The notes under the pieces are model-generated. The model made no database searches and was not told the DNA's origin. It was given only the letters and a program-made list of their open reading frames with translations. Positions 1-32,203 of a DNA stretch of 62,600 nt are shown here, one piece after another; the stretch's first letter is position 1; the number at the start of each line of letters is the position of its first letter. The stretch lies in the NCBI RefSeq assembly GCF_001904725.1, contig NZ_MRCE01000040.1:1-62600 (forward strand), given 5' to 3'. Source of the DNA: Phormidium ambiguum IAM M-71 (GTDB lineage: Bacteria; Cyanobacteriota; Cyanobacteriia; Cyanobacteriales; Aerosakkonemataceae). A program made the translations under genes and the position numbers.

Positions 1-127
1 CAAGCCTGCGCTCAAAAAGAAGGTTGTAGTGCAACCTCCAACTTAAGGAATTGGTGCGAGCGATCGCACAATGGATTTGTCTTGTACCTGGTTAACTGGT
101 GGGAATGGCGATCGCACTACGCGACAG

Positions 128-358
128 CTAGGTTAAATTATTTGCTTTCTTAACTACTTCCTTTAGCTCTTCAAAGGTGATACTACCGTCTTGATCTCCA
201 TGCGTAGCTAGCAATTCTTGGGGACTACTCATACCTGTTTCAGCCGAGATGATTGCACTTAAACCAGGGCTTAAAAAAAGCTCATGAATGGAGACTTTGC
301 CGTTTTGATCTCCATCTAAGGTATTAAAAAGAGATTGAAGTTCTTGCTCAGTTGCCAT
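128..358 (-). CDS. Two-EF-hand calcium-binding protein (CSE-like)
   Basis: This 76-residue acidic protein has two EF-hand loops. The first, DGDQNGKVSIHE at about residues 15-26, is canonical, with Asp, Asp and Asn at loop positions 1, 3 and 5, Gly at 6 and Glu at 12. The second, HGDQDGSITFEE at about residues 53-64, keeps positions 3, 5, 6, 8 and 12 but has His at position 1, so its calcium affinity may be lower. Size and architecture match the small calcium sensor CSE described in filamentous cyanobacteria. It is a stand-alone minus-strand gene starting at ATG 358. It is probably a soluble cytosolic calcium sensor or buffer; its partner cannot be inferred from the neighbours. Confidence 0.8.
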   Translation of the reverse strand: MATEQELQSLFNTLDGDQNGKVSIHELFLSPGLSAIISAETGMSSPQELLATHGDQDGSITFEELKEVVKKANNLT

Positions 359-791
359 AAGTTTTTATCTGAATTAATTATTTAATTTACGATCTCTTCA
401 TTAAATAAACTTATATCCAAAGACGTAGAAAGGGGTATGACCTCTAACAACTATCGTGTGAGAAATGCGGGTATTTGTAGCGACCTGCAATACTAATCGC
501 TCAGACCTGCAATCATCGTGGTTTTCAGCATTATTACTTATCACGGATTTTCGCGAATATTATATTTTTGCCGCAAAGCTTTAATTAACTAGGTCAGAGA
601 TTGCTGGCTTTACACTCGATCTCGTGCGCGAATATCTGCGGATTTTCGCGGATTTCCGCACAGCCTGATTTGGCTGTTTCAAAATGTGTACTCATTACGC
701 ATTTTGGTCGATTGGATTGGTACAATCGCACTTAGGCAGCCATTTATGTTCATTTCATTCTTCAATTATCTCCTCAAGTGCCTCTGAAAAT
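359..791. other. Gene-free stretch with direct repeats beside the telomere resolvase gene
   Basis: No convincing gene is seen here. The stretch holds paired direct repeats: GACCTGCAAT at 482-491 and 504-513, CGCGAATAT at 552-560 and 627-635, and CGGATTTTCGCG at 544-555 and 639-650. These could be protein-binding sites. It lies between the start of the EF-hand gene and the 3' end of the resolvase gene. Confidence 0.5.
544..650. repeat. Pair of CGGATTTTCGCG direct repeats
   Basis: Two exact 12-bp copies lie at 544-555 and 639-650, 95 bp apart. The sequence CGCGAATAT partly overlaps the first copy and lies just upstream of the second. The function is unknown. Binding sites for a plasmid-encoded protein are one possibility. 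Confidence 0.6.
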
Positions 792-1859
792 TTACAGTTT
801 GGTAATACTACCTTGTGCAATTTCAAACCGTTGGTATGCCTTAATTGTCGCTTCATCATTATCACCAAGTATTGCTCGCGCATAGTCCAAATAATCGAAT
901 GGATCAACGCCTGAGTTAGCAATTGAAGCCTTCAGGTATGCTCCCCTAAACTTGTGATAGGTCATATCTTCAATAATTGCCCAGTCCTTAGCCCGTTCAT
1001 TTAACACCTTTGACCAACGTCTATTAACTCTCTCTGGGTCTTCTGTTGGGTCAAACCGCTTATCATGTTTCTCTAGAAACTCCATACCAGCTAAGACCAA
1101 ATCAGCTGATAGTAGGGTAGGAATAGCAAACTCAAAATCTCTCAACTTCTGCCCATCAAGTTTCCTGCTTTTCCCTTTTAGTTGACCTTTGAAACCTAAC
1201 TCGTAATCTCGAATTTTTCTCAACTTGGCTGATAAGTGAACTTCTGCCATTCTCCGTCCAGTTGCTAGAGCGATCGCACAAGAAACATCGCGCCATTCTA
1301 CATCAAACAAGGTGGCACCATTAGCTACTTCTGTAAGCACTTCCTTAGCTTTAATTAGGTAAGGTGACAAGTTAAGAGGTATTCTATTTTCTACTTTTGA
1401 ACGATTTTTAACACTTTCCCGATAGCGAAGATTTTGCTTTTCCTTGTAAGGGCTAAATAGGAAACTTAGGGCATTCCCAAAGTGAGTGATAATCGTGCAA
1501 ACTGGATTGTAGTTAGCTTTATCTAGCAGTTCAGTTTTAGCAGCTTTTTTAAGTTCTTTTTTCAATATTGTAATTTGACGTAAGCAAGTACCGTATTCTT
1601 TTTGGTCTTCTGGTCGATCGTCTGGGTAATTTGCTTTTAATAGCGCTGCTTCCTTAGTAGCTAAATCCTTCCAACCTGTTAACCCTTCAGACTTTACGCC
1701 TTTCTCTCTTTGAGTACGACTATATGGCGCTAGAGCTTCAAATTTGGCTAGCAGTTCAGATACTCGCCACTCGATAAACTCGTTGGTCAATTCTTCAGGA
1801 TGCTTTAGCTGCCTACTCATCTTCCTTACTCTCTGTTGTCCTGCTCTTACAGTAACCAA
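792..1859 (-). CDS. Telomere resolvase (protelomerase, TelA/ResT-like)
   Basis: The 355-residue protein has the signature order of the telomere-resolvase catalytic domain, a relative of the tyrosine recombinases. It shows IALATGRRMAEV at about residue 200 (catalytic Arg), then a Lys-rich FKGQLKGKSRK stretch (candidate Lys), FAIPTLLSADLV, TEDPERVNRR, MTYHKFRGAYL (His and Arg), and a C-terminal ILGDNDEATIKAYQRFEI that supplies the nucleophilic Tyr. The spacing and the words ATGRRMAEV and IPTL resemble Agrobacterium TelA rather than XerC or phage integrases. Such enzymes cut a palindromic replicated telomere and rejoin it as two hairpin ends, so they imply a linear replicon with hairpin telomeres. 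The gene is divergent from the next one across a 152-bp region with two dyads. I could not find an obvious telomere palindrome in the window. The family call is fairly secure; activity is inferred. Confidence 0.8.
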   Translation of the reverse strand: MVTVRAGQQRVRKMSRQLKHPEELTNEFIEWRVSELLAKFEALAPYSRTQREKGVKSEGLTGWKDLATKEAALLKANYPDDRPEDQKEYGTCLRQITILKKELKKAAKTELLDKANYNPVCTIITHFGNALSFLFSPYKEKQNLRYRESVKNRSKVENRIPLNLSPYLIKAKEVLTEVANGATLFDVEWRDVSCAIALATGRRMAEVHLSAKLRKIRDYELGFKGQLKGKSRKLDGQKLRDFEFAIPTLLSADLVLAGMEFLEKHDKRFDPTEDPERVNRRWSKVLNERAKDWAIIEDMTYHKFRGAYLKASIANSGVDPFDYLDYARAILGDNDEATIKAYQRFEIAQGSITKL

Positions 1860-1938
1860 GGAATAAGTTAAATGTCCATAATTTATAGCTTCTAATCACT
1901 TCTTGGAATATATTAATCACCATTCATAAATTCTTTTT

Positions 1939-1991
1939 ATCTATAGATGAGTAGCATTGACGAAATATTTTATAACCACTAATCTATAGAT
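1939..1991. promoter_or_regulatory. Two ATCTATAGAT dyads in a divergent promoter region
   Basis: Two perfect 10-bp palindromes, ATCTATAGAT, lie at 1939-1948 and 1982-1991. Their centres are 43 bp apart, close to four helical turns. They sit between the divergent resolvase gene and the 323-residue gene, so they are good candidates for operator sites serving both. Confidence 0.5.
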
Positions 1992-2011
1992 ATACCAAGA
2001 AATTAACTGAT

Positions 2012-2983
2012 ATGGCTACTCAACCGAAAAATGATTGGCCCAAATTGGGTGAGAAATTAACTCAAAAGCTTGATGGCATTGCTGATGAAGCCCGGATTAA
2101 GAAACTGGTAATTAATGCCGTCAACCAAATTATTGATGCTGGAGTTACTCTGAAACGTCCGTTAGGTATTATTCGCAAACAAATAGAAGCTAAATTTCCG
2201 AAACTGCCAGCGACACAAGTCAAGCCTGATGGGTATTATTTTACTAAAACAGGACTTGGTAGAGTAGAACGCTTTGAACATTTAGCTTTGTGGTATTTAA
2301 CTGAAAATACCTCGCGCTGGAGTGTCACAGGCGATGACGCTAGAAGGGAATACTGGCAAAGCTTGCCAAAGTTTGGCGAACACGAACCATCAACAGAATC
2401 GAGAAACACAGAAATCAAGGAAATATCCAACCAGCCTACCCTAACTACTGAAATGTTGGAATCAGCTGTGATTGATGCTTTGGGATTTGACGAGGAAACT
2501 AGGGAAATTTTAGGGTTGGCGATCGCACATTCTGGCTTAGATTTGGCTGAATTTACCCAGAAGGCTATCAAAACCTACGCTAACACCATCACTGGGAAAA
2601 TTAGGCGATTATCAGAGGAAAGTTTGGAGGATATCTCAACAGAGGAATTGCTTAACAACCCCAAGTATTCTACCTATCCTGGGAGGGCAGAAGAGATGGT
2701 AAGAAGAGCGATTAATGCTATCAAAATCTACAATTCGGAAGTAGCAACCGAGCCTAAGCAACGATGGATTATTACTCAGAGTTTGCTTTCAGAATTAACT
2801 GGCTCAAGAGGTTCTGTTGTCCAATCTGCTATGCAAAAGCATCGAGATGATATCGACTCGCATCATCAGAAATACCCGGAATTTTTCAATGATGATGGCA
2901 CTCTCAAACAATACTTTAACCGCAAGCGTGGCATTGACATTAGAAACGAAATAGATTTAGTTAAGCTAGTCCCCAATGGATAG
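2012..2983 (+). CDS. Unrecognised protein divergent from the telomere resolvase
   Basis: I do not recognise this 323-residue soluble protein. It has no signal peptide or membrane segment. The N-terminal 75 residues are basic and helical (LGEKLTQKLDGIADEARIKKLV). A linker at about 125-145 precedes a helical middle with IRRLSEESLEDISTEELLNNPKYSTYPGRAEEMVRRAINAI in two runs. The region WIITQSLLSELTGSRGSVVQSAMQKH at about 245-275 looks like a helix-turn-helix, similar to the DNA-binding part of plasmid telomere or replication accessory proteins. It is divergent from the resolvase gene and may share its operators. A DNA-binding role at the telomere or the shared promoter is inference only. Confidence 0.6.
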   Translation: MATQPKNDWPKLGEKLTQKLDGIADEARIKKLVINAVNQIIDAGVTLKRPLGIIRKQIEAKFPKLPATQVKPDGYYFTKTGLGRVERFEHLALWYLTENTSRWSVTGDDARREYWQSLPKFGEHEPSTESRNTEIKEISNQPTLTTEMLESAVIDALGFDEETREILGLAIAHSGLDLAEFTQKAIKTYANTITGKIRRLSEESLEDISTEELLNNPKYSTYPGRAEEMVRRAINAIKIYNSEVATEPKQRWIITQSLLSELTGSRGSVVQSAMQKHRDDIDSHHQKYPEFFNDDGTLKQYFNRKRGIDIRNEIDLVKLVPNG

Positions 2984-3033
2984 CGACTAAAACTAAAAAC
3001 CTTTGATGGATAATTTGTGGGTCTAATCTATGC

Positions 3034-5013
3034 TTAAACCAGCTTAATATCTAGCGGTAATTGCTTAACTGGTTGCAGATTTTTTGGCAGATTACCATCT
3101 TTAATCTGTGGGTAATCATGGTGAGTTGGATGTTTTAACAGTCTATCATCTATTGCACCAGTAGCTAAAGCTATATAGCGGTTTGACATTAATTCTAGCC
3201 AGTGCCAAAACTGCTCCTTCTTCCCTTCAGGTAAATGTTTAGTCGTTGTATTAATGTAATGCCGACAAGCATCATTTAGGAGTATTGAAACAAAGCAGTT
3301 GCGATAATATCCATCAATTCCCAATGCTTTGACGTTGTAACTGTGGTTCATGCCGATAAAATTGATGTACTTCTTCCGCCCACCAGTACCAAAACTTCTG
3401 TACAGGTTTTGAATATAAGAAACTGCATCACTTCCAGCTTTTTTAGTACCTTCTTTTTCGGCAACTGCTACTTCTATTCTGTCCAAAGTTTCTGCCATTT
3501 CATCAAAGAAAATTATCAGTCTGTTAGTTTTATTTCCGGGCTTTCTCTTGTCATATTCAGTTTGTAGGTACTTGAATTGCTGATAAATATCGAGTGGATT
3601 ATCTATTACCTTAATTCCTGCATCATCCCATGAGGTACTGTGATGAATATCAAAAGCCAAAAGCATCGCTGAATCTGGTTCGATTAAGTCATCAATTCCC
3701 TTCTGGCTTAACTCCTGATTGATGATGGCATTAGCAATATACAAAGCTCCAGTACTTTTCGCACTTCCCGGTTCGCCTATTACTAAAAAACCTAAATTTT
3801 TTTGTACGCAATCATCGATTGATATCAGTGATTTTTCCAATCTTTCCCGGTTAGCGAGTGCTTTCTCTTTGTCACTACGTTTATCTATCCGCACCTCTAG
3901 CCTACCGTTAGATACCACAATTGTAGGCTTACGAGTGAGATTTAAAAACCCTGGAAGTTGGTCACAAACTGTCTTTAACTTGTTTTCATTGAATGCACTG
4001 ATAGGACGTAAGTAAATTACAGTAACTTTGCCATCCTGCTTTTCTTCCATTGTGAGAAACTCGGTGTTAATATCTGCTTCTAACAATAATTTTTGCACCA
4101 TTTTAACTGAGTAATTATCATCACATTTTTCTTTGAACAGCATTATATGATACTCAGCGACTTGTTCAGCTAACTGCTGTTTTTCAACTTCTAAAACTTC
4201 GATGATATTTTTTAGCCTCTCATTCTGTATCAATCCATCATCAATTTTCTTCTGAAGTAATGCCCTTTCATTGGTTAACTCGACGTGAATCCGTCTCTCT
4301 TCTAAACTCAATTCTCTTCTAGCTAATTCTTGTTGTTCAGCTTGGTAACGTAATTGTTGTTTAATCTCATTGTTTTCTTCCGTCAGTTTTTGCGCCGCTA
4401 AGATTTTATTATCAGCATCTTCTTTGATTTGTTCGGTAACACTAATTGCCTGTTCAAGCTGTTGGGATAACTCAGTTACTACTCCAGAATATTCAACTTG
4501 CAACTGCTCTATTTCTGCCTTATGTGCTGTTTCAATGTTGGCAATCATGGCAGAATATTCAGTTTTTAGCTTGGTAGTCTCCCGGTTTAATTGTTGTTTC
4601 AACTGTTCTATCTGTGCATCTCTATCCTGTAATAACTCTTTGTAGTAAGCAGCTTTTTGGTTGTTTTCACTTAAGAGTTTTTGCTCTAATTCCAATTTCT
4701 CACCTATCAACTTTTGCTCTAGTTCCTGCTTTTCTTTGATTAACTTTTCAACTTGATTAGAATTTAGATTTTCATTCCAAGACTTCTCATCAAGTAACTT
4801 AGTTAACTGTGATTCAAGCTCATAAATCCGTTGAGCTTTACTGTCTTCTAACTGCTTTCTACTTGGGACTTTAGCAACAAGGTAACTAGATAAAGGTAAG
4901 CCAGTGGCAATGGATATCCATACAATAGGGGTGTTGTTGATGCTATGCCCAAACAGAAATAATCCAAATGCTGCTACATCTGCCAAATAAACTGTCCTTA
5001 ATTTTCTATCCAT
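3034..5013 (-). CDS. Membrane-anchored coiled-coil P-loop ATPase
   Basis: From the preferred ATG at 5013 the protein has 659 residues; an open frame extends upstream to 5106, but its extra 31 residues overlap the previous gene and look untranslated. Two hydrophobic segments at about residues 6-45 would anchor it. A Glu/Gln/Lys-rich coiled coil follows, at about 60-310. The C-terminal half is a P-loop domain with Walker A GEPGSAKST near residue 413 and a Walker B-like LIIFFDEMAE near 503. It is the last gene of a compact operon with other membrane and coiled-coil proteins. The design recalls large membrane-linked AAA or FtsK/zot-like motors, but I cannot place it in a named family. A membrane complex with its operon partners is inferred. 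Confidence 0.75.
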   Translation of the reverse strand: MDRKLRTVYLADVAAFGLFLFGHSINNTPIVWISIATGLPLSSYLVAKVPSRKQLEDSKAQRIYELESQLTKLLDEKSWNENLNSNQVEKLIKEKQELEQKLIGEKLELEQKLLSENNQKAAYYKELLQDRDAQIEQLKQQLNRETTKLKTEYSAMIANIETAHKAEIEQLQVEYSGVVTELSQQLEQAISVTEQIKEDADNKILAAQKLTEENNEIKQQLRYQAEQQELARRELSLEERRIHVELTNERALLQKKIDDGLIQNERLKNIIEVLEVEKQQLAEQVAEYHIMLFKEKCDDNYSVKMVQKLLLEADINTEFLTMEEKQDGKVTVIYLRPISAFNENKLKTVCDQLPGFLNLTRKPTIVVSNGRLEVRIDKRSDKEKALANRERLEKSLISIDDCVQKNLGFLVIGEPGSAKSTGALYIANAIINQELSQKGIDDLIEPDSAMLLAFDIHHSTSWDDAGIKVIDNPLDIYQQFKYLQTEYDKRKPGNKTNRLIIFFDEMAETLDRIEVAVAEKEGTKKAGSDAVSYIQNLYRSFGTGGRKKYINFIGMNHSYNVKALGIDGYYRNCFVSILLNDACRHYINTTTKHLPEGKKEQFWHWLELMSNRYIALATGAIDDRLLKHPTHHDYPQIKDGNLPKNLQPVKQLPLDIKLV

Positions 5014-5240
5014 AGCCCCAGCAATGACCCGATAACAACTGATGAAAGTTCGCCTACGTCTGACTGACGTTTTAGGTAATAAATTGAGGTAACAACTATT
5101 CCACAAATAGCCAAGCGGATAAACAAAAAAGCTAAGTAACTTAGCTGACTCGTTTTATAAAAAAAGCGTGTTAACTGACAGCCTAAAGCCACCACAAAAC
5201 ACGCTAAAACTGACTCAACTACTGAGCGATTAATGTCCAT
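4998..5240 (-). CDS. Small multi-pass membrane protein
   Basis: This 80-residue hydrophobic protein has about three membrane segments: VLACFVVALGCQLTRFF near residue 13, LAFLFIRLAICGIVVTSIYYL near residue 38, and VVIGSLLGLWI at the end. It starts inside the last codons of the preceding coiled-coil gene (11-nt overlap) and its end overlaps the start of the ATPase gene by 16 nt. Translation of all three is therefore probably coupled. No family is recognised. The size and layout recall small holin-like proteins, but there is no lysin beside it, so a structural role in the ATPase complex is equally possible. Confidence 0.65.
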   Translation of the reverse strand: MDINRSVVESVLACFVVALGCQLTRFFYKTSQLSYLAFLFIRLAICGIVVTSIYYLKRQSDVGELSSVVIGSLLGLWIEN

Positions 5241-5736
5241 ATTTTAAGGCTAATATTTGTTTCTTTTGGTCTAGTTGTTTCTGCATTACTGCCAAATCGA
5301 CTTCCCACTCTTGCGCCCCCGCTAAGTACTTCTGACTCTGGTACTCGCTACGCAGCTTCTCAAATTCAAAGTCAGAAGCAGCTTGTAATGCTTTCTGATT
5401 TTCCACGCCTGCAAGTGCATTAAGTCTTTCAATCAGCGATTGTGTTTTCTCACGTTCAAAGTTTAGCTGTTGGCTAGTCTGCTGTACTTTCTCGGTGTTA
5501 ATCTGTTGTTGTAAGTTGAACTTTTCACTATCAGATTGGGTTTTTGATTGTTCGTAATTCAGCCTAACTTGTTCCTGATTGGTGCGTTCTTTCTCAATGG
5601 CTGTTTTGGTTTTTAGCCTGACATTCTCTTGCTTCATCCTCGTAAGCCGTTCCAAGGCATTATTAACAGCCTGTTGCTGTTGGGCGTTACAGATTTCTTT
5701 GGGAATTACAATTTCACATTTGCAAGTACCACACAT
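5230..5736 (-). CDS. Coiled-coil protein with N-terminal cysteine motif
   Basis: This 168-residue protein starts MCGTCKCEIV, where CxxCxC could bind a metal or form disulfides. The rest is almost entirely heptad-like helix rich in Gln, Glu, Lys and Arg. It ends in QLDQKKQILALKYGH, which resembles the end of the preceding gene product (KIDFEKNNKLFQLKYRN), so the two may be distant paralogues. It lies 2 nt after that gene and overlaps the next by 11 nt. It is probably soluble and assembles with the other coiled-coil products of the operon. No enzymatic motif is visible. Confidence 0.65.
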   Translation of the reverse strand: MCGTCKCEIVIPKEICNAQQQQAVNNALERLTRMKQENVRLKTKTAIEKERTNQEQVRLNYEQSKTQSDSEKFNLQQQINTEKVQQTSQQLNFEREKTQSLIERLNALAGVENQKALQAASDFEFEKLRSEYQSQKYLAGAQEWEVDLAVMQKQLDQKKQILALKYGH

Positions 5737-5738
5737 AA

Positions 5739-6167
5739 TTATCTACCTCCACTTAAACCTAAAGAATTGAATTCAATTTGGGGAACGTTCCGGTACTTAA
5801 GCTGGAATAGCTTGTTATTTTTTTCAAAATCAATCTTTGCCTGTTGGAGTTTGAGTACAGCATCTTTACCCTGTACCATTAGACTCTCACGATTAATCAG
5901 AGTCATCGCTTTCTCGAAACTTAAGTTATCGGTCGTTTGAATAACTTTTTGTTCCAGAATATCGTTGTCTAGTTTGGCTTTATCTAGTTGCAGTTGTGAA
6001 CGTCTAATTAGTTCTTTGCTTGCTTCTACATCAATCTTTTTAGCGGTTAGCTTGTTGGTTTCTATTTGTTCATCGCACAATGTTTGCTCATACTTCAAAC
6101 CTCTGATACGTTGCTCGACTACTTCGGTTTGATATTCAAATTCAAATGCTGTCATTGATTGCGGCAT
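5739..6167 (-). CDS. Coiled-coil protein of the ATPase operon
   Basis: This 142-residue protein is predicted from its composition to be one long helix from about residue 10 to 128, with a short tail NSLGLSGGR. There is no signal peptide, membrane segment or catalytic motif. Its start codon shares one base with the stop of the upstream gene (TAATG), which suggests translational coupling. The pattern NLSFEKAMTLINRESLMVQG resembles the matching part of the next gene product, supporting an ancient duplication. The function is unknown. A structural or adaptor role for the downstream ATPase is inferred from the operon. Confidence 0.65.
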   Translation of the reverse strand: MPQSMTAFEFEYQTEVVEQRIRGLKYEQTLCDEQIETNKLTAKKIDVEASKELIRRSQLQLDKAKLDNDILEQKVIQTTDNLSFEKAMTLINRESLMVQGKDAVLKLQQAKIDFEKNNKLFQLKYRNVPQIEFNSLGLSGGR

Positions 6168-6415
6168 TATTTACCATCCTTTTGAAAGTATTGGTCACAA
6201 AACCTACGCGCCAAAGTATCTTTTCTTATGATAAATTGCTTGTGGTTTTCGATTATTTGGTTGGCTTTGGCTACTTCTGATTGTTGGGCTTTGAGTTCAG
6301 AATTCAGTCGTGATATTTCGATGTTCTGTTGACCATTTACCCAGAGACAGCCTGCAAAAAAGCCAATGATTGATGCAGCGAAAAACCCGACTGATTGAAG
6401 GCTTAACACTTCCAT
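6167..6415 (-). CDS. Small membrane protein with a short coiled coil
   Basis: This 82-residue protein has one N-terminal membrane segment, SVGFFAASIIGFFAGCLWV at about residues 8-26. A helical stretch rich in Glu, Gln and Asn follows, and the tail is basic. The start is supported by a strong ribosome-binding sequence, AGGAGG, a few bases upstream on the minus strand. The overall design resembles a phage Rz-like or LapA-like anchor, but no family is recognised. It is coupled by a TAATG overlap to the following coiled-coil gene. Confidence 0.6.
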   Translation of the reverse strand: MEVLSLQSVGFFAASIIGFFAGCLWVNGQQNIEISRLNSELKAQQSEVAKANQIIENHKQFIIRKDTLARRFCDQYFQKDGK

Positions 6416-6450
6416 GATTCCTCCTTTGTCGGAGTTAAAAATTCAATAAT

Positions 6451-6646
6451 TCATTTTTTTTGAGTAATTTGCGGCCTAATTGTGCGGATTAATTCAGGGG
6501 TAAATCTGATAATTACCATTGTTAAATTGCACAGAACTAGCGCCGCTATTACTACTAAGATTGGACTAATACTTCGGCTTTTGATGTCTCTTCTGAACTT
6601 GAGAGCAACAAGGCATTTGATAAGCCATTTGTAGGCAGCGATAAAA
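6451..6646 (-). other. Open -1 frame encoding a membrane tail after the slippery heptamer
   Basis: Reading on from T TTT TTA in the -1 frame gives an uninterrupted frame of about 61 codons to a TGA at 6451-6453. It has a basic stretch (LVALKFRRDIKSRS) and then a hydrophobic segment (ILVVIAALVLCNLTMVIIRF). There is no ATG, GTG or TTG at a sensible place. It is therefore either a programmed frameshift extension or the displaced 3' end of a frameshifted gene. It fills most of the otherwise empty gap before the next gene. Confidence 0.5.
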
Positions 6647-7061
6647 AATTTTCTTCTACTATCTCGAACTCAACATCTAATGCCTGTTTTAAGTTCTCCA
6701 GTTTGGTTTTAGAACTGCTGTTGATTGTCCAGTCTCCTGAGTTGATGCGATTTACTGCTTTATCCACTGCTTTGCTGATTACGCCCTCTGCGATTCTGTC
6801 TCCCAAAATATCCGACAATGCTGCTAAAGAGTCTTGCAACTTGTCTCCATTGGCGCTGTTGGCTGTTTGGCGAGCGCATTTTTCTGATTCAACTTGTGGG
6901 TTAACAGTTGTGGCATACCTGCGAGTGGCACTGGCAACTGTGGCACGTTGGTCTGATTTAAGAATGGACAAAACTGCGTTAACGGCTTTATCAGTGGCAG
7001 TAATGCCATGCTTGGCTAATTGCGCTTCTATTTGCTGGCGACGGTTCTGTGATATAGACAT
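6555..7061 (-). CDS. Unrecognised helical protein with candidate -1 frameshift site
   Basis: The zero-frame product has 168 residues, beginning MSISQNRRQQIEAQLAKHG and including DSLAALSDILGDRIAEGVISKAVDKAVNRI near residues 76-106. It has no membrane segment or known motif. Near codon 140 the minus strand reads A AAT TTT TTA, so the heptamer T TTT TTA lies exactly in the X XXY YYZ register of a classical slippery site. A -1 shift there would replace the last 28 residues with about 61 others that contain a membrane segment, ending at 6451. The gene lies 11 nt after the HTH gene and is the second of the operon. The function is unknown. Confidence 0.6.
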   Translation of the reverse strand: MSISQNRRQQIEAQLAKHGITATDKAVNAVLSILKSDQRATVASATRRYATTVNPQVESEKCARQTANSANGDKLQDSLAALSDILGDRIAEGVISKAVDKAVNRINSGDWTINSSSKTKLENLKQALDVEFEIVEENFLSLPTNGLSNALLLSSSEETSKAEVLVQS

Positions 7062-7072
7062 TGGCTTGACTC

Positions 7073-7321
7073 CTAAAATCCATTAACTCTGAGATATTCG
7101 GCGCAACGTTCAATTGGCATTTTGCATTTACGCAGTTCGCAAAATTTCTTTAGGGCAGCAATAGCATCGGGTGTATAGCCTGGTTCTCCTTTTTTGCGAT
7201 CAAACTCTCTGCCTAATTTCTTCTGGAGAATTGCAGCGTATCGCCTGAGTGTTCGCTCAGAGACTCCTAGCATCTCTGCCACTTTCTCTATTGAGTAGTA
7301 ATCAATCTCTGTACACACCAT
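7073..7321 (-). CDS. MerR-like helix-turn-helix protein
   Basis: This 82-residue protein is read from ATG 7321; an in-frame TTG at 7330 is the alternative. YSIEKVAEMLGVSERTLRRYAAIL at about residues 9-32 is a winged helix-turn-helix of the MerR/excisionase type. A basic turn follows, then YTPDAIAALKKFCELRKCKMPIERCAEYLR, the usual second half of such domains. It is the first gene of the minus-strand operon and divergent from an RHH gene, so it most likely regulates both through the 253-bp intergenic region. Confidence 0.75.
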   Translation of the reverse strand: MVCTEIDYYSIEKVAEMLGVSERTLRRYAAILQKKLGREFDRKKGEPGYTPDAIAALKKFCELRKCKMPIERCAEYLRVNGF

Positions 7322-7751: not shown

Positions 7752-8061
7752 TTTAAACGGAAGTTCTATTGAGCAACGATTGACTGAGATTGAAAACCAG
7801 ATAACCTTCATTAGAACCCAAATGGAGACAAATGGGAGATATATCCTTAGTCTCCCAAGGGTAAGCTCGCAATTGCTCGCAATTGCGAGCTTACACCAAC
7901 AAGCTTTAAGGGTTTCTCAACTAAATGCCGAAGCCCATCGAGCACAAATGCGAGAAATGCAAGCTGAAATCAGAGGAATCCAGACCGAAAATCAACGGAT
8001 TTTAAATTATTTGTTTGGTCAACAAAAATTAACATTCTCACCGAGCAAAACTCATGCCTAG
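7744..8061 (+). CDS. Short coiled-coil protein
   Basis: From ATG 7744, overlapping the end of the RHH gene, the product has 105 residues. It shows heptad-like helices: SIEQRLTEIENQITFIRTQM near residue 7 and LNAEAHRAQMREMQAEIRGI near 60. The open frame extends upstream to 7642, but the longer version reads through the RHH gene in another frame and lacks coding character. It has no membrane segment or catalytic motif. This is a common small cyanobacterial plasmid type, seemingly co-translated with the RHH protein. Function unknown. Confidence 0.55.
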   Translation: MTNLNGSSIEQRLTEIENQITFIRTQMETNGRYILSLPRVSSQLLAIASLHQQALRVSQLNAEAHRAQMREMQAEIRGIQTENQRILNYLFGQQKLTFSPSKTHA

Positions 8062-8663: not shown

Positions 8664-11477
8664 ATGTTAGAACATTTTGAAAAAAAAGTAAATAATGGCA
8701 AAGGTTCCGAAGTTTCCCAGCACAATCCTTGCCCACTTTGCGCTAAAGAAGATTGGTGTTACATTTACCCAGATGGTAATGTTTGTTGTGGACGTACCGA
8801 TATTGCTCCCTCTGGTTGGAAGATTATCGGTAAAGGTAAGGACGATCGCAATATTTTCGCACTAATCCAAGACAAAGGTATCCAGATCGCGGATAGATTC
8901 AAAAAAGTACTACCATCAGTCACACGGAGAAGAAAGGCATCTAAAGCCGCTCCATTGCCGGATAAAATAGTTTTGGCTAAGGGCAGTATATCCAAGAGTG
9001 AGAAGAAGTTACACCACGATTCCAGGTTTGGCGAGTGCTACTTGACCATTTATAATTATTCCGAAGGCCGATCGGTCTACCGCTACGAATCGGTTGATGG
9101 TTCCAACTTACCAGGGAAGAAATCTCATAAAATCTGTCTACCATTTAGCAACGGCAAATTTGAAAAAGGCGATGAGATCTGGGAAGCTTATAGATTATAT
9201 GAGACATTAAAAGCACTGGACGAATGCCCAGGAAGTAACGCTGTGATTGCGGGTGAAGGCGAGAAAGTAGCTGATTGCTTCTGGGATGACTTGGAACTAG
9301 CAGCGATTACTTGGCAAGGTTCGGCTTGGACAGAGGATAGCATTAAACCAGCGATCGAACTATTAAAAGTCAGGAATGCTGCTTTAGTTTACCTACCAGA
9401 CAACGACCCACCCGGACTCAAAAAAGCTGAAAAACTGGCGAGAATTTGCGCTAATGTAGGTTTACCTTATATTCAAATCAATCAGCAAGACATCAACCCA
9501 GAGTGTAAAGATAGAGATGATATCGTTGACGCTTTCATGAGTATGGGAAAAGAAGGAACCTTAGCCCGAATAGAAGCCCAAATTAATCGAGTATTGGCAG
9601 ATTATCAAAACAAAATTGATAATGTTGCTAACGATGAAGGTAAGAAACAGAAATTACCACCAGCCGATATTATTGCCAAAGAAATCTGTGAAGATTACCG
9701 AGATAAACTCGCCTTTAATGACAAAACTAGCACTTGGATGCGTTACGGCGCAGACTTCACAGGTGTATGGAGTCCAGAAAGCGATCAGTTTATCGAGTCA
9801 ATTATTAGTAAGATATTGGATTCTAAAGGTATTACTGGGTATGGCAGCAATAGCTATGTTGTGAACGTAGTTAAAAAACTGCGACATGACTTAATAGAAA
9901 GGAACTGGACAGAGTTACCTACTAGTGAGTATCTGCCCTTTATCAATGGCGTTTTAAATCTCCAGACTGGGGAATTATTACCACATTCACCCGGATACAA
10001 ACTTACTTGGAGATTAGCCAGAGAGTACAACCAAACTGCTACCGATTGGTCAAAAATTAACGAATTTCTGACTCATTTAACTGGTGGTAATGAAAAACTA
10101 AAACATCTAATTATTTGCTACTGTGCCGCAGTTATTAAAGGGAGAAGTGACTTACAAAAATTTGTTCACTTAATCGGATTAGGCGGTACTGGCAAGGGTA
10201 CTATGGCGCGATTGATTACGGCATTAATTGGGCAAGAAAATGTATTAACAACTACAATGGAAGATTGGTGTGGTAACAGATTTGAAGGTGCTAATGCCCA
10301 CAATAAGCGGTTGGTAATTTTCCCAGATGAAGACAAGCAAACTGGTAAGCTAGGCAAGTTTTTATCACTGACTGGTGAAGATTTAATCAGAGCAGAAGAA
10401 AAGGGTAAAAAAGCCTTTTCTTTCAAATATACAGGCATGGTTTTAGTATGTTCAAATCTCCCAATATTTGTAGGAGATGCAGCATCTAGAGTTAAGCGAC
10501 GCTGCATTACAATACCTTGTAACAATGCGGTATTACCAAGTCAGAGAAGAAATTTAGAACAGGATTTTGAGCCAGAGTTAGCGGCATTCACTAACTACTT
10601 GCTATCTATTCCAGATGAAGAAGTTAAGCGCGTTTTACTGGGTTTAGAAGATATTCCAGAAGTGGGTTTAGAATTCTGGAAAAATCGGATCAGAGTAGAT
10701 TCTATTGCGGCTTGGTTGAACGATCGTGTAATCCCAGATCCCTTGGCTAAAACTGCGATTGGTTGTGATAAGAACGAAGGTGAAAGAGGTACTCCTACCA
10801 CATTATTTGGTAGTTATAGCTGGCATTGTAAAGGTACTGGTGATAATCCCAAATCTCACAAGAATTTCTCGCCTGATTTAATCGAATTGTGCCAATCAGT
10901 TTTAGGTTGGAAAGTCGAGAAAGAGGTAACTAAAACTGGTAAATTTATTAAGGGTATTAGACTTCGTGAAACTGGACGCGATGACAGCATTCCCACTCAC
11001 GAATATGAGTTAATGCAAGCCCTTAACTCAGTAGTAGAAGAACCAGAAGCGATCGCCACTACACCCGAACCCGAACCAATATCAACACCTCAACCCGAAC
11101 CTCAACCAATTACTGAGAATGCCACACAAACCGAGCAATTGATAGTTAATTTAGAGCAGTGTCAGTGGGAAGATAGTGCGGTAATTGTAGCGGCGGGTGA
11201 AAATGGAATTGATTTGGTGCTCGATGCGATCGCCTTTGCTCCCATTGAAAAACGAGGTAAATTGAGCCAACTGCTACAAAATTTTAATTACAACTGTCAG
11301 GAAGTGGTAGCTACTATCAGAAATGCTTTCAGTGCTGATTTGAGTGATGATGAAGTCAACTTTATTAAGGTAGGGTTACAGGATTTTGTCAGGGGTTACG
11401 GCGACGCAGGACGTAAAATCATCTGGCAGAAACTTAAAGTAGACGAGAAAAATTGGCTCAAGCAACTGCTTAAGTAA
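8664..11477 (+). CDS. D5-type primase-helicase, likely plasmid replication protein
   Basis: This 937-residue protein has the domain order of phage or plasmid primase-helicases. An N-terminal zinc motif, CPLC then CC at about residues 20-40, is followed by a TOPRIM-like region with the acidic YLPDNDPPG near residue 250. The D5_N-like segment FINGVLNLQTGELLPHSPGY lies near 430, and the SF3 helicase domain has Walker A GLGGTGKGT near 508 and FPDED near 555. Then comes SNLPIFVGDAASRVKRRCI, a sensor/arginine-finger region. The tail has a Pro/Glu/Thr-rich linker (PEPEPISTPQPEPQP). The ribosome-binding region AAGAGG precedes ATG 8664. It would unwind the origin and prime replication of this replicon. 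Confidence 0.8.
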   Translation: MLEHFEKKVNNGKGSEVSQHNPCPLCAKEDWCYIYPDGNVCCGRTDIAPSGWKIIGKGKDDRNIFALIQDKGIQIADRFKKVLPSVTRRRKASKAAPLPDKIVLAKGSISKSEKKLHHDSRFGECYLTIYNYSEGRSVYRYESVDGSNLPGKKSHKICLPFSNGKFEKGDEIWEAYRLYETLKALDECPGSNAVIAGEGEKVADCFWDDLELAAITWQGSAWTEDSIKPAIELLKVRNAALVYLPDNDPPGLKKAEKLARICANVGLPYIQINQQDINPECKDRDDIVDAFMSMGKEGTLARIEAQINRVLADYQNKIDNVANDEGKKQKLPPADIIAKEICEDYRDKLAFNDKTSTWMRYGADFTGVWSPESDQFIESIISKILDSKGITGYGSNSYVVNVVKKLRHDLIERNWTELPTSEYLPFINGVLNLQTGELLPHSPGYKLTWRLAREYNQTATDWSKINEFLTHLTGGNEKLKHLIICYCAAVIKGRSDLQKFVHLIGLGGTGKGTMARLITALIGQENVLTTTMEDWCGNRFEGANAHNKRLVIFPDEDKQTGKLGKFLSLTGEDLIRAEEKGKKAFSFKYTGMVLVCSNLPIFVGDAASRVKRRCITIPCNNAVLPSQRRNLEQDFEPELAAFTNYLLSIPDEEVKRVLLGLEDIPEVGLEFWKNRIRVDSIAAWLNDRVIPDPLAKTAIGCDKNEGERGTPTTLFGSYSWHCKGTGDNPKSHKNFSPDLIELCQSVLGWKVEKEVTKTGKFIKGIRLRETGRDDSIPTHEYELMQALNSVVEEPEAIATTPEPEPISTPQPEPQPITENATQTEQLIVNLEQCQWEDSAVIVAAGENGIDLVLDAIAFAPIEKRGKLSQLLQNFNYNCQEVVATIRNAFSADLSDDEVNFIKVGLQDFVRGYGDAGRKIIWQKLKVDEKNWLKQLLK

Positions 11478-11604
11478 CTAGCACTAGATGGTAGCTGCGA
11501 CTAAGTTAACTGACCATAATCTATAGGCAAAAACAATATTGCCTCAATTTCCCATCGAACTGTGGGAATCAAGTTAGAAGCGCTATCTATACTAAGTAAG
11601 CACT

Positions 11605-12864
11605 TTACAGATTCCTATAGATTTCCTGGTTAACTTCCTTGAGAAAATCAGTTAAGACATTTTTATAATTATTGTCCTTGATTGAACTTGTTTTAACGTT
11701 GATAAAGTCAAGTGTTATCATGGCAATTCTCAGGTATTTAAGGACAGTCTGATAATCTTCCTTCCCAATCAAGGCATCAGCAGCTAAAGTGGAGGCATTA
11801 TACAAATCACTGTAATAATTACGAATTTTTAATCCTCTGGCGATAAGTTCATCAAACTCAGCCCATGTCAAGGGAGCAATAGATTTTTTTGTACCGAGAG
11901 CTTGGTCTTTATTTTTATGAGCAATAATATTCCCTCTGAGTTGAATTAACTTATTAACCAAAGGGTCTTTTTTACTGACAATTTTTAAATCCTTTCCTAG
12001 CTGTTCTGGGGTTGGGATTCTGTTTCTTTGAGATAGCCTTTCAACGTAAGAATTATCTTTGAGACGTTCTCGAAACTTTGAAGTTTCAAAGATGCTTAGA
12101 TTATCCTGGATAAATTTTATTAAAGTCTCAAGGTGTATTCCTCGATTATCTTGGTCGTAAACTCTAGATAAAGCCAGAATACTTGATTCTTGGAGAGCAT
12201 CAAGTGTAATTTGCCAAAATGCTACAGATTGGTTCATCTCTCTGGAATATTCTGGAACTAAGTTATGCAGGTTTCTGTATAATTCCGACTGATATTTAGC
12301 ATCAGCCAAGTCATTAGTTACTTCCGCCAATAATTTTTCAAATTTTTGTGTTGCTTCTGTCATAATTGAATCCTTAAGTTTAGCTAGATTAATGACAATA
12401 TTGCTCACCCTATAGTTAACATCATTGATATCTTGTCGAGAAAATTCTTCTGGAAACGGTTGATGAATAATTCTTGCGTCATAGCTATCGTCAGGCTTTA
12501 ATTGTTTGCGAATTCCGAAATACAAAGAGCCTCTGTGGTCGTAAATATCCAGCAAATAATCAAATTTCTGTTCTGCTTTACTGACTTCTAGGAAAAATGG
12601 GAAAGAAAAAGACCCTTTCCAATCATCAAAAAATTTGCCACTTGACCCGCATAATTTCTCCAACGTCACATAAACTTGAGCCAGATTTAAGCTTGAGCTT
12701 CTGTCTCTTAAATAGAGATATAAGCTTAGATAAAAACCATAATCATCAGCGATCGCCAGACTGTTTTTCCAAAGTTCATAATACTGACTATCATCGAGTC
12801 GAGAAAGTCTGTAATGCTTTCCATTGAATTCGATATTAATAACATTATCTTGGCTTTGGTTCAT
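11605..12864 (-). CDS. AbiU2/HEPN-like protein
   Basis: The 419-residue protein has an N-terminal alpha/beta half that I do not recognise. A helical C-terminal half, from about residue 175, contains QKFEKLLAEVTNDLADAKYQ and SVAFWQITLDALQESSILALSRVYD, then KLIQLRGNIIAHKNKDQA near 315. The last segment, an Arg-x5-His motif, fits the HEPN superfamily, and the helical layout resembles AbiU2-type proteins. Members are often RNases linked to abortive infection, but many are uncharacterised. It stands alone on the minus strand between the replication gene and the PIN-like pair. A defence role is inference. Confidence 0.55.
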   Translation of the reverse strand: MNQSQDNVINIEFNGKHYRLSRLDDSQYYELWKNSLAIADDYGFYLSLYLYLRDRSSSLNLAQVYVTLEKLCGSSGKFFDDWKGSFSFPFFLEVSKAEQKFDYLLDIYDHRGSLYFGIRKQLKPDDSYDARIIHQPFPEEFSRQDINDVNYRVSNIVINLAKLKDSIMTEATQKFEKLLAEVTNDLADAKYQSELYRNLHNLVPEYSREMNQSVAFWQITLDALQESSILALSRVYDQDNRGIHLETLIKFIQDNLSIFETSKFRERLKDNSYVERLSQRNRIPTPEQLGKDLKIVSKKDPLVNKLIQLRGNIIAHKNKDQALGTKKSIAPLTWAEFDELIARGLKIRNYYSDLYNASTLAADALIGKEDYQTVLKYLRIAMITLDFINVKTSSIKDNNYKNVLTDFLKEVNQEIYRNL

Positions 12865-13098
12865 CAGGAGTTTATGCGCGATAATTCAGGAGATGCAATT
12901 AAACCTAACAGTTTTATTGCTATCCTAATGGTAGCAAGAAGAAAACTGCAACCATTTGATTAACGCTCCGCGTGAGACTGTGGCTCGAATTACCCTAGAA
13001 GTACCGTCCTCACGAAGTTGACCAACTGGCAATCCTGTGCTTATTGCTCCTAAATTGCCATTAAATATGTAAAACTACTTCTTTTAGGTAAATAAACA

Positions 13099-13509
13099 AT
13101 GAGTATTGAACAGAACGTACTAGAAATTTCCGGCTTAATTTTCACCAAAACTATCTTAGGAGATTTGCAAAAACTCCAGCAATATTCGAGAGAACCAATG
13201 GCAGCTATTTATGCAGATAACCTCCTGCGAACTATGCGAACTATGCGAGATAAATTACCTTTTGATCCTTACACAGAAGTAGTAATGGCTCTCCATGATG
13301 CTATAGCTTTTCAAAACCAATGGATTGACTACAATGCCAATCAGTACCAGGGAGTTTATGAGCTACTGACATCCTTAGTCGAACGAGAAAAACTCAACAA
13401 CGATGAAGTCTCTTCAGCAATTTTAACCTTAGAAAACTTAGGCTTCGATACCCTACCCTTTGGAGGAGAACTTGACTTCACTACCGCTCAGGATGAAAAC
13501 GAAGAATAA
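13099..13509 (+). CDS. Small acidic protein, partner of the PIN-like gene
   Basis: This 136-residue helical protein has no recognised domain. Notable stretches are ILGDLQKLQQYSREPMAAIY near residue 22 and LVEREKLNNDEVSSAILTLE near 95. It has an acidic C-terminus. It lies 6 nt before the PIN-like gene on the same strand, which suggests co-translation, as for an antitoxin or subunit of that protein. That role is inferred only from position and size. Confidence 0.5.
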   Translation: MSIEQNVLEISGLIFTKTILGDLQKLQQYSREPMAAIYADNLLRTMRTMRDKLPFDPYTEVVMALHDAIAFQNQWIDYNANQYQGVYELLTSLVEREKLNNDEVSSAILTLENLGFDTLPFGGELDFTTAQDENEE

Positions 13510-13515
13510 CAAAAC

Positions 13516-14385
13516 ATGGAAGATAAATCTATTCCGCAACACTTTTTAGACACTTCAGTTGCACGTTCCCTGCTTTTAGGTACACAAGCCTATAAGCAGT
13601 ATTTTCAGTCCCAATTTGGCGACCAATCGCCAAACATTTCCAACTACGTCCAAATGGAAATGAAGCGAAGTTATTTAATCAATCTAATTTCCTTCTACTT
13701 TGTACTGCGCCTAGAAACTATCAATAGTATTGGAGATGCCATTGTTCTATGGAGCAATAGATTTAAAACAAGCGAACTTAAGGCAATATTACAGCTGATT
13801 CCCCAACTTTTTAGCACTCATCAACTAGACTTTACCAGTTCGTCGGATAAAGAAAAAGCACTGTCTATTTTGGGAATTTATATCAAACGATTTGAACTTA
13901 TACTCAGGAAAAAGTTTACCAACACTAACCAAGATTCAACCGCCTGTACCCGTGCTCAAGTTCCTCTCAGAGTTGAGTTAAGGAATATGGCTGACGGGTT
14001 AAAGCAGTTTGCCGATGAATTTGGAGATGTAGAAACTTGTCGGAATCAATGTCAAATAGATGAGTTTCTTTTATCACGCTATTCTACAGAAATTGAAGCC
14101 TATATTCAACAAGCATCTCAACTTCCGAACAACAAAAATACCAGGGGATTTATCAAAATTGCCAACAATTTAAAAGAAATAAGAGAGCAAGGTGCGAGTG
14201 CTTGTGACTGTAAACGCTGCGAAAAGATTGGAGATGTTGTCATTGCCTTAGATGCACCCCGCACGATGCAATTGGAACATACTGATAATTCTTTTGATTA
14301 TTTATGTCCGCCGATTAACCAACCTCATTGTAAACATCCTTCAGAAACTCAAATAGTGATCAATAAATCAGGTGATAATTTCTAA
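13516..14385 (+). CDS. PIN-like nuclease domain protein
   Basis: The 289-residue protein starts HFLDTSVARSLLLGT, the first strand and Asp of a PIN domain. It closes with GDVVIALDAPRTMQLEHTDN followed by SFDYLC, matching the final Asp-bearing strands of that fold. The middle is helical, with a Cys-rich patch ACDCKRCEKIG near 237. PIN domains are metal-dependent RNases, commonly toxins or defence effectors. The preceding small gene and the following interrupted gene probably form one operon with it. The PIN call rests on the ends of the protein only; the central acidic residues were not mapped. Confidence 0.5.
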   Translation: MEDKSIPQHFLDTSVARSLLLGTQAYKQYFQSQFGDQSPNISNYVQMEMKRSYLINLISFYFVLRLETINSIGDAIVLWSNRFKTSELKAILQLIPQLFSTHQLDFTSSSDKEKALSILGIYIKRFELILRKKFTNTNQDSTACTRAQVPLRVELRNMADGLKQFADEFGDVETCRNQCQIDEFLLSRYSTEIEAYIQQASQLPNNKNTRGFIKIANNLKEIREQGASACDCKRCEKIGDVVIALDAPRTMQLEHTDNSFDYLCPPINQPHCKHPSETQIVINKSGDNF

Positions 14386-14397
14386 GAGTAACCGTGA

Positions 14398-14466
14398 ATG
14401 CCAAAATCCCAAAAACTTGAACAAATCCAACAAACACTCAATCAACTACGAGACAACCCTCAGTAA
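14398..14466 (+). pseudogene. 5' fragment of a gene split by the TnpB element
   Basis: A 22-codon frame, MPKSQKLEQIQQTLNQLRDN then PQ, begins 12 nt after the PIN-like gene and stops inside the left-end hairpin of the TnpB element. Its reading frame can be joined to the open frame after the element at QEQWTLG, so it is probably the N-terminus of the 179-codon frame at 15656. Confidence 0.5.
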
Positions 14467-15651
14467 GGGCTATATAATGATACCATTAATATTATGAAAA
14501 CCCTAAAGTTTAAGCTATACCAACACAAAAGAAATCGATACCTCAAAAAAGCGATTAACGCTGCGGGAGCGATCTATAACCATTGCATCGCACTCCATAA
14601 ACGTTATTACCAAATGTGGGGTAAACATTTGAATTGTGCTAAACTTCAGGCTCATATTGCCAAACTGCGAAAACGTAAACCATTCTGGCAATTAGTGGGT
14701 TCTCAAGCAGTGCAAGATATCTGCCAACGAATTGAGAAAGCGTACCAATTGTTCTTTAAACACAACAAAAAAGGAGTTATACCACCGGGATTCAAGAAGG
14801 TCAAGAAGTATAAATCGTTCACTCTCAAACAAGCCGGATATAAGTTTTTAGGTGGCAATCGAGTTAGGATTGGAGAACGAGTCTATCAATACTGGAATAA
14901 GAGAGAAATTGAGGGAAAAGTTAAAACTCTGACCATTAAGAGAACTCCATTAGGAGAGCTATTTATGGTCGTAGTAGTTGACACTTCTGAACCAACAGTC
15001 AAGTTCGAGACAGGTAAAATTGCTGGATTTGATTTCGGTTTGAAGACATTCCTCACTTTATTTGATGGGGCAAAATTTGAGAAAATCGCCTCACCTGAAT
15101 TCTTTAAGTGTTCGCTAAAAGCAATAGCCAAAGCATCAAAAAATCATTCCAAAAAACAGAAGAATTCCGCGAATAGGGAACGAGCTAGAAAGCATTTAGT
15201 CCGTCAGTATGAGGCTGTGACTAATCGGAGACAAGACTGGTTCTGGAAATTAGCTCACAACCTAACTGATAAATTTGATGTCCTCTGTTTTGAAAGTCTC
15301 AACCTCAAGGGAATGCAACGACTCTGGGGACGAAAAATATCAGATTTAGCTTTCCGAGAATTTCTGCAAATATTGGAGTGGGTTGCCCAAAAGAAGGGTA
15401 AAAAAGTTATCTATATTGACCAGTGGTATCCCTCCAGTAAAACCTGTTCTCATTGCCAACATTTGTTAGACAGTATTGATTTGTCGGTTAGAGAGTGGCG
15501 TTGTCCGTCCTGTCAAACAATTAATGGACGTGATGAAAATGCGGCGCGAAACATTTATGCAGTTGGGGCATCAACTGTTGGGTTAGGTGATGTAAGTCGG
15601 GTACTACCTGCTATTACTGTTTGAGCCTAGAATCCGCCGAATTCAATTCGG
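14457..15651 (+). mobile_element. IS200/IS605-type element carrying only tnpB
   Basis: The left end has a hairpin, CCCT CAGTA AGGG, at 14457-14469. The right end has a hairpin, CCGAATT C AATTCGG, at 15637-15651. Between them is a single tnpB gene with no tnpA. Small subterminal hairpins and absence of inverted repeats fit this family. The exact ends were not determined. It interrupts a gene of the PIN-like operon. Confidence 0.65.
14494..15624 (+). CDS. tnpB: TnpB RNA-guided nuclease of an IS605-family element
   Basis: This 376-residue protein has the full TnpB layout. The N-terminal region begins MKTLKFKLYQHKRNRYLKKA. The RuvC-I strand IAGFDFGLKTFLTLF is near residue 175 (Asp), and RuvC-II FESLNLKGM near 268 (Glu). 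A four-Cys zinc finger, CSHC and CPSC, spans about 325-350, and RuvC-III GRDENAARNI (Asp) follows it. All three acidic residues are present, so it looks intact. TnpB cuts DNA guided by an RNA from the element's right end. That RNA would cover the 3' end of the gene and the hairpin at 15637-15651, with the guide in the flanking sequence from about 15652. Confidence 0.9.
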   Translation: MKTLKFKLYQHKRNRYLKKAINAAGAIYNHCIALHKRYYQMWGKHLNCAKLQAHIAKLRKRKPFWQLVGSQAVQDICQRIEKAYQLFFKHNKKGVIPPGFKKVKKYKSFTLKQAGYKFLGGNRVRIGERVYQYWNKREIEGKVKTLTIKRTPLGELFMVVVVDTSEPTVKFETGKIAGFDFGLKTFLTLFDGAKFEKIASPEFFKCSLKAIAKASKNHSKKQKNSANRERARKHLVRQYEAVTNRRQDWFWKLAHNLTDKFDVLCFESLNLKGMQRLWGRKISDLAFREFLQILEWVAQKKGKKVIYIDQWYPSSKTCSHCQHLLDSIDLSVREWRCPSCQTINGRDENAARNIYAVGASTVGLGDVSRVLPAITV

Positions 15652-15655
15652 GGGA

Positions 15656-16195: not shown

Positions 16196-16315
16196 TGTTG
16201 AGTAACTTAAGCTTTTAATTGTGAAGAGCAAGTTGGCAATGGGCTACAAAAAGGCAAGGAAAGAATACAAAAGACTAACGGGAAAATAGCAAAGCTGGAT
16301 ACACGGCTGGCTTGG

Positions 16316-16603: not shown

Positions 16604-16706
16604 AATTTACTGGTATGCTGATTGAGATACTACCGGAGTATCTGCAACAGGAATTTTTGAAGATGCAGGAAGCAACGTAACTTTAGCGTCGCCTACCATT
16701 CATCTT

Positions 16707-31472: not shown

Positions 31473-31575
31473 AGAAAAAGCCCTCTCTAAAAGAGCTTTA
31501 AATAAATAACTGCTTCAATTTTTCAACGGTTGGAAGTTTCTTTTTGCGATCGAGCTTATTTTAAATTGTCCTCTC

Positions 31576-32091: not shown

Positions 32092-32203
32092 TTTAGTTCT
32101 TGCCTCTCACTTCACTAACTAAAATATCCACTAGAGAAAACTGTTTTTCCAGAAAATTTTTATAAATTTAATTTCTCCATACTTGGGAAAAGCGTCGGAG
32201 TCT

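Follow-up and report, generated by a model that had tools for sequence, protein, structure and literature searches.

The gene at positions 792 to 1859 of the window very probably codes for an enzyme that closes the ends of its own linear plasmid into hairpins. The window is the whole stretch of DNA that was analysed, namely the entire 62,600-bp contig C40 of Phormidium ambiguum IAM M-71, whose genome comprises 90 contigs and 7.41 Mb. We consider it highly likely that the gene specifies the telomere resolvase (protelomerase) of the replicon on which it resides, and that this replicon is a linear, mobilizable plasmid whose ends form covalently closed hairpins and whose inverted terminal repeats span several kilobases. 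In the proposed mechanism, the enzyme would bind a palindromic junction with the arms TTCCTTGTTCT and AGAACAAGGAA, both strands would be cut through Tyr329, and each end would then be refolded and resealed as a hairpin. The product of the gene at 2012-2983 would probably take part as a separate subunit with the C-terminal domain of long resolvases. The relevant features of the window are given below, where 'own' contigs are those of strain IAM M-71 and G394 is Phormidium sp. LEGE 05292.

1 to 76: dispersed repeat at the left contig end, with copies inside own contigs C50 and C38.
792 to 1820, minus strand: telomere resolvase catalytic subunit, 342 aa from the ATG (PF16684; alignment of 20 homologues; fold nearest to TelK, TelA and ResT).
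2012 to 2983, plus strand: conserved partner, 323 aa, divergent from the resolvase gene, with a match between its C-terminal part and the domain at the C-terminus of long resolvases.
3034 to 5106, minus strand: 690-aa protein with a P-loop (by eye), found by tblastn also in own contigs C70, C74 and C86 and in G394:C31 and G394:C81.
8664 to 11477, plus strand: primase-helicase (D5_N and DUF5906 in Pfam; PHROG 'DNA primase'), a probable replication protein.
53629 to 55161, minus strand: MobA/VirD2-type relaxase (PF03432, E 2.4e-20), the DNA being 97% identical on G394:C31.
55744 to 58614, minus strand: AAA-type helicase (PF13087/PF13086).
58724 to 59896, minus strand: ParB partition protein (PF02195, E 2.1e-35).
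59893 to 60666, minus strand: ParA partition ATPase (PF13614, E 2.4e-47).
62034 to 62600: first part of the right inverted terminal repeat, 91% identical to the terminal repeat of G394:C31 (boundary 4928 / 80398).
62548 to 62600: 53-bp repeat, present twice in the terminal repeat of G394:C31 (813-865 and 4387-4439), with a further copy at the right end of own contig C77.

The resolvase ORF lies on the minus strand, and the plus strand across 792-1859 contains many stops. A version started at TTG reaches position 1859, but translation most likely begins at the ATG at 1820, since the alignment of the closest homologues begins at residue 14. The earlier note had assigned the gene to the telomere resolvases rather than to the XerC-type enzymes, citing the motifs ATGRRMAEV, IPTLLSAD, TYHKFRGAYL and ILGDNDEATIKAYQRF, and all four were indeed found in the ORF. 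The family assignment itself was upheld by a Pfam profile, a profile search of the PDB and the predicted fold. Specifically, the ORF matched PF16684, the ResT/TelK catalytic domain, over profile positions 1-181 of 181 with 140.9 bits (E 4.3e-41; the curated cut-off is 27), and this was the sole Pfam family to match down to E 10. The Phage_integrase family PF00589 did not match the resolvase at E <= 10, and was matched by two other ORFs of the window. When a profile built from 20 members of the clade was compared with the PDB, the single match at E <= 1 was TelK (2v6e; E 4e-11), and in this match the Arg, Lys, Arg and Tyr of the active site line up. Furthermore, an AlphaFold model built from 17 sequences (pLDDT 82.8, pTM 0.58) was compared with the PDB by Foldseek, and the top seven entries were TelK, TelA (five entries) and ResT, with Cre next in the list (E 3e-3). 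A search of IMG/VR with the resolvase protein returned no relative.

Across the alignment of 20 clade sequences, Arg189, Lys215, His289, Arg292, Asp320 and Tyr329 were invariant. The catalytic residues of TelA are given as R255, K286, Y363, R366, H394 and Y405, and its hairpin-refolding residues as Y201 and R205 (PMC3558466). The enzymes of the window clade therefore differ from TelA at two positions, with His289 in place of Tyr363 and Asp320 in place of His394. Since LGH occupies the place equivalent to His394 in certain other cyanobacterial subclades, the Asp is a trait of the window clade and not of the whole family. The window enzyme resembles TelA of Agrobacterium (PDB 4e0p, 4dwp, 4f41 and others) in its fold (Foldseek E 5e-7 to 2e-6), its similar size and its palindromic target, and TCATGA, described as the centre of the TelA target (PMC3558466), is also the centre of several tips of the window class. 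TelK (2v6e) was the best match both by profile and by fold. This protein of phage phiKO2 is one long chain of 558 residues in 2v6e, as compared with the 342 aa of the window enzyme, and it has Lys and His at the two catalytic positions that are occupied by His and Asp in the window enzyme. Also, TelK comes from a phage whereas the window enzyme comes from a plasmid. Phage structural or packaging genes were absent from the 40 window ORFs scanned by Pfam (E limits 10, 0.01 and 0.05; 47 ORFs of at least 120 aa are listed), so that the window did not qualify as an N15-type phage-plasmid.

Strong support for a linear replicon came from the same genus, where the 85,325-bp contig G394:C31 proved to be a counterpart of the window. 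Bases 1-4928 of this contig are the reverse complement of bases 80398-85325 at 100%, giving inverted terminal repeats of 4,928 bp, and each tip carries a 68-bp palindrome. The comparison with the window covered 786-7124 and 52600-62600, on either side of the middle (about 7-52 kb), and the matched segments were in the same order: window 786-7124 corresponds to 10493-16851 of G394:C31 at 90.1% identity, 52600-61292 to 70668-79367 at 97%, and 61287-62600 to 79663-80939 at 94%. The genes for ParA, ParB, the helicase and the relaxase lie in the block 52600-61292, and all of them are therefore present on the palindrome-tipped G394:C31. The terminal-repeat boundary is reached at window position 62034, after which 567 bp of the repeat follow before the contig stops at the 53-bp repeat. 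This collinearity into the terminal repeat indicates that the window most plausibly represents the main part of a linear plasmid, with both telomeres lying beyond the contig.

The two contig breaks are likely to be explained by repeats, the right one by the 53-bp repeat and the left one by the dispersed repeat at 1-76. The window ends were checked for a terminal overlap, a terminal repeat and a palindrome, and none was found; the telomere core described below was likewise absent from the window. The best palindromes in the window are internal and lack this core (48 bp at 52346-52393 and 34 bp at 7861-7894). We also considered that the telomeres of the window could be hidden in other own contigs, but exact matching of the half-site throughout the genome returned only the two tips of C70. 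As the smallest own contig measures 2.2 kb, short pieces were possibly dropped from the assembly. The partition, primase and mobilization genes to which the earlier note refers were identified: the window carries ParA, ParB, the D5_N/DUF5906 primase-helicase and the MobA/VirD2 relaxase. A long palindrome, which the earlier note had proposed to look for at the ends, was missing from the window ends but present at both tips of G394:C31. As to its suggestion of a linear mobilizable plasmid, the tips of G394:C31, the long inverted terminal repeats and the ParA, ParB and relaxase genes speak in its favour, while hairpin closure and mobility are what we infer from these features for IAM M-71.

Tips of the same kind were found on other contigs with related enzymes. 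Own contig C70 (16,002 bp) encodes a resolvase 83% identical to that of the window and has the same 54-bp perfect palindrome at both ends, within identical inverted terminal repeats of 681 bp. A contig of Richelia sinica FACHB-800 (G078:C59, an exact match to L058 over 8 kb) carries terminal repeats of 924 bp at 99%, and a palindrome of 38 bp marks each tip. A 126-bp palindrome opens a second contig of Phormidium sp. LEGE 05292 (G394:C81, an exact match to L057 over 8 kb), whose resolvase gene terminates at base 463. The palindromes of 54 and 126 bp may have been left by an assembler, with word lengths of 55 or 127, on its way through a hairpin. The core common to these tips is TTCCTTGTTCT-NNNN-AGAACAAGGAA, where the middle is CATG, CTAG or TATA and the flanks diverge. 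Contig 52 of Anabaena lutea FACHB-196 (L056; 11,376 bp) begins with the same telomere core. The first 8 kb of this contig contain no resolvase among the ORFs of at least 150 aa, so the resolvase may be supplied in trans or be encoded further along the contig.

The core is tied to the clade of the window enzyme. The core or half-core was present in 10 of the 22 contigs of the window clade, seven of them with the full core, as compared with none of 88 other resolvase contigs (1.38 Mb), which include some plasmids twice and left-end pieces with the resolvase elsewhere (e.g. L153, the left end of pNsp_f), and none of 38 controls, consisting of 20 neighbouring contigs and 18 own contigs. The other 12 clade contigs, some of which may be fragments, had no core; among those without it, G127:C6 has terminal repeats of 263 bp and UHCC0870_p11 has neither. 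In a tree of 39 rows, which was built quickly, gave long-branch warnings and is relied upon for the window clade only, the 10 rows labelled with the core formed one side of a branch with an SH-aLRT of 98. The label required one change on this tree versus a mean of 8.4 in shuffled sets, and none of 500 shuffles was as low. Other resolvase subclades were accompanied by other telomere sequences, namely GTCYGTTAATTTAAATTAACRGAC and its variants, TATTATCNGATAATA and others, and these were less clean in the tree. In broader terms, a terminal palindrome or terminal repeat was seen in 23 of 80 contigs with a PF16684 match (51 viewed whole and 29 for the left 20 kb only), versus none of 20 neighbouring contigs and one of 17 own contigs, two masked contigs being left out of the latter. 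The one positive own control, C69, has a 55-mer at both ends that is common to many contig ends and is probably an insertion sequence. Among the 23 positives, L156 and L209 may be artefacts, their repeats of 127 and 55 bp being usual assembler word lengths; this leaves 21 of 80.

At the level of contigs, a hairpin looks the same as a large inverted junction, for example in a dimer. Conceivably, the enzyme could serve a circular plasmid as a site-specific recombinase or dimer resolvase, with the palindromes as its crossover site and the contig tips as assembly artefacts. This would suit the plasmids UHCC0870_p11, Cal7716_p8 and UHCC0926_pn6, which are labelled circular and carry the gene family with no palindrome or terminal repeat; UHCC0926_pn6 even has homologues of the window's ParA (74% identity), ParB, helicase and relaxase. 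Moreover, a telomere resolvase is reported to be convertible into a Cre-like recombinase (PMC12270096). However, a circle with one short palindrome leaves unexplained why inverted repeats of 0.26 to 4.9 kb lie exactly at both tips of C70, G078:C59, G127:C6 and G394:C31. The enzyme of UHCC0926_pn6 has neither a fused domain nor a partner gene, and it may be degenerate or represent a different case. In addition, read-based studies describe such plasmids as linear, in one study with hairpins (PMC5987646, PMC7118181). For 16 complete plasmid records that carry such a gene, the ends were examined for terminal or near-terminal inverted repeats, terminal palindromes and an internal telomere junction. 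Such telomere signs were present in 11 of them, while the five without any are the three circular-labelled plasmids named above and the linear-labelled pC052_G and p057_I, for which the view was confined to the terminal 6 kb on either side. Six of the 11 positive records are labelled circular (AP018306, AP018305, AP018302, AP018215, NC_019775 and NZ_CP026691; L011, L095, L097, L093, L008 and L086, respectively), and yet these plasmids with the gene family show palindromes at their ends or inverted repeats at or near them. One of them, pNPM9 (NZ_CP026691), is described as linear in PMC5987646. Several public plasmid records labelled circular are probably linear, and we regard the circular alternative as very unlikely.

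Even less credence is due to the idea that the window is a segment of a formerly linear plasmid that was fused into a circular or chromosomal replicon, with the resolvase as a passenger: no tip is present in the window itself, both of its ends stop at repeats and the genome holds several related plasmid contigs, but partition genes are present and the right end is collinear with G394:C31 through the terminal-repeat boundary, as expected of an intact linear plasmid.

The preferred reading of a hairpin-ended linear plasmid is also in line with published replicons. The Nostoc sp. N6 plasmids pNPM8, pNPM9 and pNPM10 are linear cyanobacterial plasmids with terminal repeats, and their hairpins were inferred from library behaviour (PMC5987646). 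We found a protelomerase-family gene in all three. They differ from the window in their tip sequence, AAATTAACRGAC, and in having a longer resolvase with a fused partner domain. For Nostoc ATCC 53789, two linear plasmids among 12 are reported (PMC7118181), and both carry a resolvase gene. One of them, pNsp_f, which was reported as linear from Nanopore and Illumina reads in the same study, shares with the window a window-clade enzyme (56% identity), an adjacent partner gene and the same half-site, located at its right tip; it differs in that its annotated genes name no relaxase. No circular plasmid of Nostoc N6 or ATCC 53789 came up among six records, nor among the best 15 of 22 listed. Outside the cyanobacteria, the linear plasmids of Rhizobiaceae resemble the window in their hairpin ends, protelomerase, partition genes and size of about 80 kb (PMC13293297). 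Their authors reported in 2025 that they could identify no relaxase or oriT, whereas a relaxase is encoded both in the window and on its counterpart.

Next to the resolvase gene lies the divergent gene for the conserved partner. No Pfam family scored above its cut-off with this protein. Of 40 short resolvase ORFs (up to 460 aa), 30 have a relative of the partner at a distance of no more than 1 kb. The arrangement is divergent, downstream or upstream; the tally of arrangements includes two mirrored G027 ORFs that are not partners, and some loci are truncated or present twice. Eight of the 40 short resolvases, including the enzymes of G394:C81 and UHCC0926_pn6, have no partner or fusion. A stretch matching the partner lies inside 55 of 74 long resolvases, while 18 have neither such a stretch nor a partner. 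With the exception of L141, this stretch covers the C-terminal part of the partner and lies at or near the C-terminus of the resolvase. When the window partner alone was used as the query, 11 of its 36 matches at E <= 1e-10 were resolvase ORFs, and a profile built solely from stand-alone partners matched 57 of 112 resolvase ORFs. A broader partner profile matched 33 ORFs other than resolvases, 31 of which lie within 1 kb of a resolvase; the other two are the window's own gene, beside its resolvase, and one lone fragment. In a control with reversed ORFs, this profile matched none of 1,547.

Since the partner matches the C-terminal domain of long one-chain resolvases, these data suggest a split, two-subunit resolvase, in which the partner probably supplies as a separate subunit the domain that is fused in most long enzymes. 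The partner may have a role in telomere binding. The structure model of the partner was of low confidence (pTM 0.39), and a search of the PDB with this model gave nothing at E <= 0.001; a profile search of the PDB gave one unconvincing match (E 0.065). Weak PHROG matches (E 1.5e-6 and 4e-5) suggest phage relatives of the partner. Unlike TelA, the cyanobacterial enzymes come with a partner or a fused C-terminal domain, which has no convincing match in solved structures. We know of no two-subunit form of TelA, TelK or ResT.

With respect to the spread of the family, a PF16684 match was present in 71 of 388 genomes searched within the order and in 15 of 386 genomes drawn from the phylum, both lists including the window's own genome. 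That genome alone has seven such places. Two of these, the right end of C74 and the left end of C62 (L033 and L034), are apparent halves of one resolvase gene interrupted by an insertion sequence, the end of which is common to many contig ends. Among 14 control genomes, only that of Synechococcus elongatus gave a PF16684 match, which was weak (30.9 bits), chromosomal and located at 2077179-2077658 of a 2.7-Mb contig (G036:C1; L024). The Pseudomonas plasmids CP075795 and NZ_AP022474 encode distant resolvase relatives with 27% identity.

To our knowledge, hairpin telomere resolvases are known from few systems. Linear replicons are called rare in cyanobacteria in PMC5987646, and PMC3558466 cites cyanobacteria, with no detail, among bacteria with hairpin-ended linear chromosomes. 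The Nostoc hairpin plasmids were published in 2018, and their enzyme was left unnamed: 'telomer-' and 'resolvase' are absent from the main text of PMC5987646. Plasmid records already annotate such genes as 'protelomerase family protein'. No paper naming a cyanobacterial telomere resolvase together with its telomere was among the matches listed, which consisted of titles and abstract starts, with most subscription papers outside the search. Apparently new are therefore the pairing of enzyme and telomere, the spread within the order and the partner that matches the C-terminal domain of long resolvases. One family that is tied by clade to defined telomere sequences provides ready enzyme-substrate pairs, and the conserved partner together with its fused form points to a two-subunit resolvase. 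The relaxase on a hairpin-ended plasmid raises the question of how covalently closed linear DNA is conjugated. A review points out that relaxase-bearing plasmids of cyanobacteria have no known transfer channels (PMC4379921). A wider and more tentative idea, which may well prove wrong, is that cyanobacteria keep a large and diverse set of hairpin-ended linear replicons by means of two-part resolvases, some of these replicons being mobilizable. In that case, a relaxase nick in the closed dumbbell would let both strands pass to the recipient as one self-complementary strand. Such a resolvase would consist of a short catalytic subunit and a separate telomere-recognition or regulatory subunit (2012-2983 in the window), which is fused in most long enzymes, and in at least one species, G027, the main chromosome may be linear with a like telomere.

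In the single-contig genome of G027 (4,681,111 bp), we observed a near-perfect palindrome of 6.2 kb at 2110086-2116294 (G027:C1; L045). Its centre, TATTATCAGATAATA, matches another telomere class, each arm encodes one resolvase of 876 aa, and the flanking genes look chromosomal by eye. This palindrome possibly represents the two hairpin telomeres of a linear chromosome that were joined by the assembly. Similarly, in the record of plasmid pC052_H (L092) the sequence around position 38103 is duplicated in inverted orientation, so that two resolvase genes mirror each other across a telomere core; reads running through a hairpin tip would be expected to leave such a structure.

Several further genes of the window deserve mention. 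The 690-aa protein at 3034-5106 had no match in Pfam. A TnpB/OrfB-type gene with a Cas12f1-like TNB domain is located at 14494-15624, and a Tn3-type transposase ORF at 17441-19033 covers only part of the DDE profile. Positions 28650-36351 hold a cluster of TPR-CHAT, protein kinase-TPR and NB-ARC/NACHT genes that resembles a signalling or defence island, and a Fic/DOC-family gene at 52529-53575 adjoins the relaxase gene.
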